Below, in pieces: positions 36,470 to 38,349 of a stretch of 64,000 nucleotides of DNA; within the stretch, counting starts at the first letter, position 1; each line of letters opens with the position of its first letter. Below the pieces are notes generated by a model. It saw only the letters and a list, made by a program, of their open reading frames with translations, was not told the origin of the DNA and ran no database searches. Source of the DNA: SAR116 cluster bacterium AG-426-B08 (GTDB taxonomy: Bacteria; Pseudomonadota; Alphaproteobacteria; Puniceispirillales; Marisalimonadaceae); assembly GCA_003213175.1 (NCBI GenBank), contig QCNN01000003.1, forward strand, positions 20,336 to 84,335. The letters are read 5' to 3'. Made by a program: the position numbers and the translations under genes.

Positions 36470-37345
36470 TTATTTATTTTTTAATCTTGTTAGGATAATA
36501 CCTGCAACAACAATTAATAAAGAACCTATGAAGGTGTTTTGAGTTGGAATTTCATCATATAGAAAATATCCCCACACTGCTGCTAAAATAAGAGTTAAGT
36601 TTACAAATGGTGCTGCAAAAGAGGCATTAATATAAGTTAAAGACTTTATAAAACAAAAATGACCTGCGGTTACAAAGATACCCATACTTAACATTAAGAG
36701 GATGTCAAACTTATTTGTGGGAATTTCCCAAAAAAAATATGCAAGTGGTAATGACAAAAAAGTTCCAGAAATGGCAGTATAAATTAAAGTTGTTGATGGA
36801 TTTTCTGTAATATTTAAATATTTTGTACTTACGGTAAAGAAGGAAAAACATAAGGCGGCCATAAAGGGCAAAATTATGTAATAGTTAAAAATCCCCTTTG
36901 TGGGATTTGCTATTATTAGAGCACCCATAAGACCCAAAACAATTAAAATAACTTGCCTTCCAGAAACTTTTTCTTTTAGAAAAAAAATTGCTAATAAAGT
37001 TGTTAAAACAGGTCCTATCATATAAACAGCAATATGTTCTGCAAAAGGGAGTGATGCTAACCCTGCAAACATAAAGCAAGTAGTCATCATAAGCAAAGCT
37101 CCTCGACCTATTTGTAATTTTGGCATATTTGTTTTGGATAAATTAATAAAATTTCTGTTGAAAAGTATGATCAAAAAAACTAATTGAGATACATATCTAA
37201 CAAACACTATAAAAAAAGAATCATACCTTTGGCCTAAATCTTTAGCGATTAATTCCATTATTGACCAAATTAAGTATGTTAATATTATTAATATGAAACC
37301 ATAAGTTGTTTTAGATATTTTGAGATTTTCAAAAAAAGAAACCAT
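36470..37345 (-). CDS. EamA/DMT family transporter
   Basis: Two EamA halves; LASLPFAEHIAVYMIGPVLTTLLAIFFLKEKVSGRQ. Confidence 0.88.
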   Translation of the reverse strand: MVSFFENLKISKTTYGFILIILTYLIWSIMELIAKDLGQRYDSFFIVFVRYVSQLVFLIILFNRNFINLSKTNMPKLQIGRGALLMMTTCFMFAGLASLPFAEHIAVYMIGPVLTTLLAIFFLKEKVSGRQVILIVLGLMGALIIANPTKGIFNYYIILPFMAALCFSFFTVSTKYLNITENPSTTLIYTAISGTFLSLPLAYFFWEIPTNKFDILLMLSMGIFVTAGHFCFIKSLTYINASFAAPFVNLTLILAAVWGYFLYDEIPTQNTFIGSLLIVVAGIILTRLKNK

Positions 37346-37384: not shown

Positions 37385-37416
37385 AAAAGACGGTAGATGG
37401 GGTACTACCGTCTTTT
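37385..37416 (-). terminator. Rho-independent terminator (minus strand)
   Basis: Stem AAAAGACGGTAG / CTACCGTCTTTT, 8-nt loop; on the minus strand followed by a run of seven T. Confidence 0.88.
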
Positions 37417-37473
37417 ATAAAATCATTTATCTATTCATGAGGAGGAGGAATGATGTTAATAAAATAGATAAAT
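37385..37473 (-). ncRNA. Candidate CcsR/cuckoo-type anti-SD sRNA in the DUF1127 3' UTR
   Basis: Minus strand: ATTTATCTATT-[loop containing CCTCCTCC]-AATAGATAAAT (37425-37473), then terminator 37385-37416, directly downstream of a DUF1127 CDS. Confidence 0.72.
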
Positions 37474-37493
37474 AATTTATTCTTTATAAGTAC

Positions 37494-37736
37494 TTATGCA
37501 GCTTTATTTTTTTCTAATTCAATCATCTTATCGTTAACCGAATTTTTTGAAATAGGCAAATTTATAACTTCATTTGATTTATAAAAATTACCATTTGAAA
37601 GCTCATGTCTTGTTATTCCTAACTGAAATAATTCGTTATCTGACAAAAAAGATAAAGCTTGTCTTGTTCTAATAATAGCAACTTTTTCAAAGATATTGAT
37701 TATAGCAGTTGAGAGTTTTTTTAAATTAAAAATCAT
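37494..37736 (-). CDS. DUF1127 domain protein (CcaF1-like)
   Basis: RTRQALSFLSDNELFQLGITRHEL matches the DUF1127 core. Confidence 0.85.
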   Translation of the reverse strand: MIFNLKKLSTAIINIFEKVAIIRTRQALSFLSDNELFQLGITRHELSNGNFYKSNEVINLPISKNSVNDKMIELEKNKAA

Positions 37737-37797: not shown

Positions 37798-37814
37798 ATA
37801 CAAATTAGGAAAAT

Positions 37815-37839
37815 AATTGTTTCCAAAATAGAAACAATT
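37815..37839. promoter_or_regulatory. Palindromic operator-like site
   Basis: AATTGTTTC-caaaata-GAAACAATT, perfect 9-bp arms. Confidence 0.45.
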
Positions 37840-37938: not shown

Positions 37939-38349
37939 ATGTTTGATTATGAATATTGTAATTGTTATATTATTAGAAAAATATCTTCAAAAATTACTAA
38001 AATTTATGATAATGCTCTCAAAACGAGTGGTCTGAAAATAACCCAATATGCAATTCTTAAATATATAAGTATTTTAAAAAAAACTAACCTCAAAAACCTC
38101 TCTACCGCTATGGATTACAATAGGAGTACTTTGGGAAGAAATATAAGGATACTTGAAAGAAAAAAACTCATTCGCTTTGAAAAAGGTAAAGATAAAAGAG
38201 AAGTTGAAATTACTATGAGTAATGATGGAATCAAGATATTCAAGGTAGCCAGACAATCTTGGGAAAATATCAATAATCAAGTTTCTGAAAATTTTGGAAA
38301 AAATAAAATAAAAATTTTAGAACAAATTTTGAATGATAATATTTTATAA
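37939..38349 (+). CDS. MarR family transcriptional regulator
   Basis: LKITQYAILKYI, LSTAMDYNRSTLGRNIRILERKKLIRFEKGKDKREVEITMSNDG winged-helix pattern. Confidence 0.85.
   Translation: MFDYEYCNCYIIRKISSKITKIYDNALKTSGLKITQYAILKYISILKKTNLKNLSTAMDYNRSTLGRNIRILERKKLIRFEKGKDKREVEITMSNDGIKIFKVARQSWENINNQVSENFGKNKIKILEQILNDNIL

Follow-up and report, generated by a model that had tools for sequence, protein, structure and literature searches.

Does the 3' untranslated region (3'UTR) behind a small DUF1127-family gene in a SAR116-cluster bacterium encode a regulatory RNA that carries the anti-Shine-Dalgarno (aSD) core of 16S rRNA in its loop, and if so, what might such an RNA control? The locus lies on the minus strand of a 64,000-nucleotide stretch of DNA (the window) from a SAR116-cluster alphaproteobacterial assembly of 1.47 Mb that is 52% complete. 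An earlier note, made from the sequence of the window, had described it as a CcsR/cuckoo-type RNA, and the CcsR RNAs of Rhodobacter sphaeroides carry a CCUCC-type loop motif. We put at roughly 0.7 the probability that the locus pairs a DUF1127 gene with a trans-acting aSD RNA, processed from the 3'UTR, which lowers nutrient uptake. The observations on which this reading draws are gene order, fold, conservation, covariation, a dedicated upstream element, the identity of the aSD in a family member and matches to Shine-Dalgarno (SD) motifs (Table 1).

In the mechanism that we propose, the DUF1127-family gene and the downstream hairpin would form one transcription unit, which has its own promoter-side element and ends at a Rho-independent terminator. 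The 3'UTR would probably be cut from the mRNA to yield a stable RNA of approximately 90–100 nt, its loop displaying CCUCCUCC, the same core as that of the 16S aSD. This loop is predicted to pair with a few mRNAs possessing an extended purine SD (GGAGGA, GAGGAG or AGGAGG) and to block the start of translation. In this genome the mRNAs with an extended SD come disproportionately from nutrient-uptake genes, so that the RNA would reduce uptake during stress or a change in nutrients, the role reported for its relative NfeR1. Processing may be aided by the small protein, as it is by CcaF1.

Table 1. Features of the DUF1127 locus, with positions counted from the first letter of the window.
Feature	Position	Strand	Basis
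Rho-independent terminator, 12-bp hairpin then T run	37385..37416	minus	Fold; equivalents in relatives' 3'UTRs
17-bp 3'UTR hairpin with 25-nt loop	37420..37478	minus	RNAfold; kept in all relatives with the gene
CCUCCUCC anti-Shine-Dalgarno core in loop	37441..37448	minus	Unpaired probability about 1
DUF1127-family small-protein gene, 80 aa, CcaF1-like position	37494..37736	minus	ORF; homologues match PF06568
Conserved promoter-side element GGAAACAATTATTTTCC	37808..37824	minus	Conserved in four genera
Downstream EamA-type transporter gene, a marker of synteny outside the RNA	36470..37345	minus	Pfam EamA 1.7e-30

The open reading frame named in the earlier note is present, and its DUF1127 label stands through its relatives: the window protein itself falls below Pfam detection, with no DUF1127 match even at E ≤ 10, but PF06568 is matched by six of the eight homologues aligned with it (best 3.4e-7). 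Identity to the aligned homologues ranges from 38 to 90%, and the gene of AG-426-I14 is 90% identical to that of the window. Judged by these homologues, the 80-aa protein is a divergent DUF1127 protein. Whether it binds RNA is uncertain because its divergence is so great that Pfam misses it, and RNA binding by DUF1127 itself is disputed (PMC12501420). The EamA gene is adjacent to the locus in the genus of the window (g1), in g3 and at several loci of g2.

The perfect 11-bp stem that had been described in the 3'UTR is exact and correctly placed, and RNAfold lengthens it to 17 bp, pairing 37462–37478 with 37420–37436 (one G-U pair) around a loop at 37437–37461. The minimum free energy of the 3'UTR is −29.8 kcal/mol, compared to −11.2 ± 2.7 for dinucleotide shuffles (z −6.8), and 0 of 200 shuffles folded as well. 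Exposure of the aSD core in the loop, also claimed, is borne out by the prediction, in which CCUCCUCC is essentially never paired: CCTCCTCC, at 37448–37441 on the minus strand, is unpaired at 99–100%, both in the UTR alone and in a longer mRNA segment. The terminator hairpin and its T run were likewise found where the earlier note had placed them. The octamer CCTCCTCC has three occurrences in the 64 kb. Two further ATTCCTCCTCC sites exist in the assembly, both antisense inside coding genes, and were rejected as additional copies; the element is therefore single-copy in this 52%-complete assembly. The description of the element as single-copy applies here and in g1 and g3, which have one CCUCC hairpin, but not in g2 and g4, where there are two hairpins, nor to those g2 genomes that have two copies of the gene.

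Across SAR116, CCTCC lies shortly 3' of the stop codon in all 25 gene copies retrieved and at all 36 contig loci, two sets that overlap in the genomes represented, and for each of the 61 UTR entries (38 distinct sequences) RNAfold predicts that the motif sits in a hairpin loop. Of 199 control ORFs from the same contigs, 11 have CCTCC within 150 nt, as does 1 of 52 ORFs from the window; Fisher's test of DUF1127 loci against control ORFs gives 5e-33, a value that ignores the relatedness of the sequences. Loss of stem or loop in close relatives, against which the earlier note had asked its reading to be checked, was not seen, since every gene-bearing relative retains both hairpin and loop, and an equivalent terminator is present in relatives' 3'UTRs. 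Stem sequences vary by genus while the loop core CCUCC is kept. Within the g2/g4 alignment, 99.0% of 629 cells at 35 pairs are paired, and four pairs have changed on both sides; slid controls are 26–56% paired. This count describes g2/g4, the g1/g3 alignment being too gapped for one. The expectation of compensatory stem changes around an invariant loop thus holds in that the g2/g4 pairs compensate and the CCUCC core is kept, but the loop beyond the core varies between genera. A covariance model built on g2/g4 finds strong matches solely beside DUF1127 genes; g3 lies beyond its reach and g1 is matched weakly, and the model is therefore no test of g1 and g3.

Four near-complete assemblies (G003, G009, G011 and G015; loci L191–L194) break at the locus, so that surveys of presence and absence would wrongly score it as missing. 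True absence from these genomes is not supported: the contig with the neighbouring EamA gene ends there, and G009 still has the terminator together with a portion of hairpin 2 at the contig end. The module is present in two copies in some g2 genomes, and the two copies probably break g2 assemblies at this point. Beyond these genera, CCTCC also follows soon after the stop codon of DUF1127 genes in SAR116 family f4, often but not always within a hairpin loop in the cases folded, and the few genes examined in family f2 do not share this feature. Class-wide, 11 of the 22 DUF1127 genes examined have a sense CCTCC within 150 nt, compared to 6 of 81 control ORFs. Among these 11 is the DUF1127 gene at L137 (genome G150), behind which stand five or more hairpins with CUCCUCC-type loops, an arrangement reminiscent of a long cuckoo array. 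Another SAR116 family (L092 in G119; L095 and L108 in G059) has, in addition to CCTCC downstream of the DUF1127 gene, a CCTCC stem-loop-like sequence ahead of its start codon.

Upstream of the DUF1127-family gene, a block GGAAAYAATTATTTTCC is kept with small variations in all four genera. A −10-like TATATT lies approximately 24 nt from the start of GGAAACAATTATTTTCC, and the −10-like block has equal spacing in g1 and g2/g4. The GGAAAYAATTATTTTCC pattern occurs seven times in six SAR116 genomes, always upstream of a DUF1127-family gene (two of the seven fall in the genome that has two copies), and this restriction speaks for a unit under separate control. By eye, the element and −10-like block present no clear RpoH consensus, and the VtlR-binding motif CAATGCAGCCATGCA of Brucella bears no resemblance to the element. 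A divergent MarR-family gene sits beside the unit (window 37939–38349, plus strand) in g1 only; control by its product is not supported because the element is found in all four genera.

A DUF1127 gene associated with a CcsR-like RNA has been described before, as the CIN1 locus (PMC10253847), and three features of that class are found in the window: a predicted RNA directly behind a small DUF1127 gene, CCUCCUCC unpaired in a hairpin loop, and a Rho-independent terminator ending the unit. We class the form in the window as a single-hairpin variant of this CIN1/CcsR kind, which is already known. The CcsR1-4/ccaF1 unit of Rhodobacter sphaeroides has its own promoter (PMC10253847, PMC8625941) and shares with the window the position in the 3'UTR of a small DUF1127 gene, the CCUCC-type loop and the terminator. 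It has four RNAs, whereas the window has one motif hairpin, with an AT-rich stem and the 25-nt loop; the proteins differ, that of the window being too divergent for Pfam, as do the upstream elements. The R. sphaeroides type of CcsR is characterised by an RpoHI/RpoHII promoter, and by processing through RNase E with maturation helped by the DUF1127 protein. Cuckoo RNAs, as summarised in PMC4504443, comprise two to four hairpins in which the helices lack sequence conservation and a loop motif is conserved. On that summary, the window resembles the cuckoo family (Reinkensmeier and Giegerich 2015) in its variable, covarying helices and kept loop motif, but has one motif hairpin and a terminator in place of two to four; SAR116 g2 and g4 have two. 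The nine-letter cuckoo/alpha-r14 loop is CCUCCUCCC, which many g2 relatives carry, whereas the window has CCUCCUCCU, with U in place of C as its ninth letter. With alpha-r14/NfeR1 (Rfam RF02344) the window shares the CCUCCUCC aSD loop, variable stems and the presence of transporter genes among the best SD matches; in NfeR1 there are three motif hairpins and a sigma70 promoter belonging to the RNA itself (PMC10746234), compared to the single hairpin here. The comparison with CcsR/CcaF1 is sound for the DUF1127 family, the 3'UTR CCUCCUCC hairpin, the terminator, the conserved loop and the compensating stems; its limits lie in hairpin number, ninth letter and Rfam score. The covariance-model check that had been suggested went against membership of alpha-r14, Rfam ar14 (RF02344) scoring 26.7 bits where the gathering score is 58.8; no Rfam match in the window reached gathering level, and the low-scoring ar14 and unrelated matches were rejected.

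A 16S sequence was not found in G000 and was found in just one of six relatives; the 16S of a family member ends GGATCACCTCCTTT, so that its aSD core recurs in the loop. Of 57 window ORFs, 16 are preceded by an SD-like motif (none for the reverse complement) and none by GGAGG, and the median pairing of the loop with start sites in the window is no better than that of shuffled loops. Genome-wide, GGAGG near ATG is barely above a reversed-pattern control (224 against 201). A target scan of 1.13 Mb of the genome, with small overlaps counted, found at least 6 nt of loop complement at 18 of 907 genes starting with ATG. Eight of these 18 look secreted by a crude signal-peptide rule, compared to 12.6% of genes lacking a strong SD, and Pfam assigns nine to uptake: seven solute-binding proteins (OpuAC, two Peripla_BP_6, TctC, SBP_bac_5, DctP and SBP_bac_1/8), an ammonium transporter and a xanthine/uracil-type permease. 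Thirty random genes included two uptake genes (TctA and an ABC ATPase) and no solute-binding protein (Fisher 0.001 and 0.0004), p-values that are exploratory because the analysis was picked after several SD matches had proved to be solute-binding genes. Target choice is also weakly specified, since just the CCUCC core of the loop is kept between genera. Expression level is a confounder, because genes with a strong SD of the 16S type also include solute-binding proteins, at least six in 55 (ten of the eleven signal-peptide-like ones scanned); a strong SD may simply accompany high expression of solute-binding genes, with or without the RNA. The reported targets of NfeR1 are mostly transporter mRNAs (PMC10746234, PMC7143759), and the likeness of our candidate targets to these is suggestive, not proof. 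The strongest purine SDs of this AT-rich genome precede solute-binding or transporter genes (L237, L242, L243, L246, L247, L255, L257 and L271).

Could the same features arise without a trans-acting RNA? It is unlikely, although by no means negligible, that the hairpin is a cis-acting 3'UTR element, which merely stabilises the DUF1127 mRNA or guides the processing of its end while the loop binds a protein, perhaps DUF1127, in an autoregulation without target mRNAs. Such an element would suit a hairpin that always lies directly behind the gene and whose strong RNA-model matches occur solely beside DUF1127 genes, and CcaF1 does affect the maturation of its own 3'UTR RNAs (PMC10253847). A stabilising hairpin, however, needs no exposed CCUCC loop kept while its stems change, and those relatives that have been characterised regulate mRNAs in trans (PMC10746234, PMC7143759). 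The loop might instead act as a general decoy, imitating the 16S 3' end, occupying SDs broadly and slowing initiation globally. Its core equals the 16S aSD core, and the core alone is conserved between genera, but the rarity of extended matches (224 against 201 for GGAGG; 18 of 907 genes with at least 6 nt) makes global action improbable. That hairpin and terminator are a chance product of an AT-rich 3'UTR, functional in termination alone, is very hard to credit even though perfect inverted repeats of 11 bp are no great rarity in the AT-rich window (11, overlapping ones counted): it is contradicted by retention in every relative with the gene, by the compensatory changes and kept loop core, and by control ORFs, which mostly lack CCTCC. 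The trans-acting aSD RNA that lowers uptake is the reading we prefer.

A narrower form of that reading is tentative, and we think it rather doubtful: a minimal one-hairpin aSD RNA, made together with a DUF1127 protein that has perhaps lost its RNA binding, would serve as a dedicated brake on nutrient uptake, with strong purine SDs setting the sensitivity of each target. If this is true, the SD strengths of the genome partly encode the regulon. SAR116 may already be covered by the founding cuckoo, CcaF1 and CcsR papers. Our analyses extend an RNA-protein module studied in Rhodobacter and in rhizobia to SAR116, an abundant and largely uncultured clade with AT-rich genomes in which Rfam finds nothing, and the form with a single hairpin seems to represent its minimum: one stem, a CCUCC loop and a terminator.
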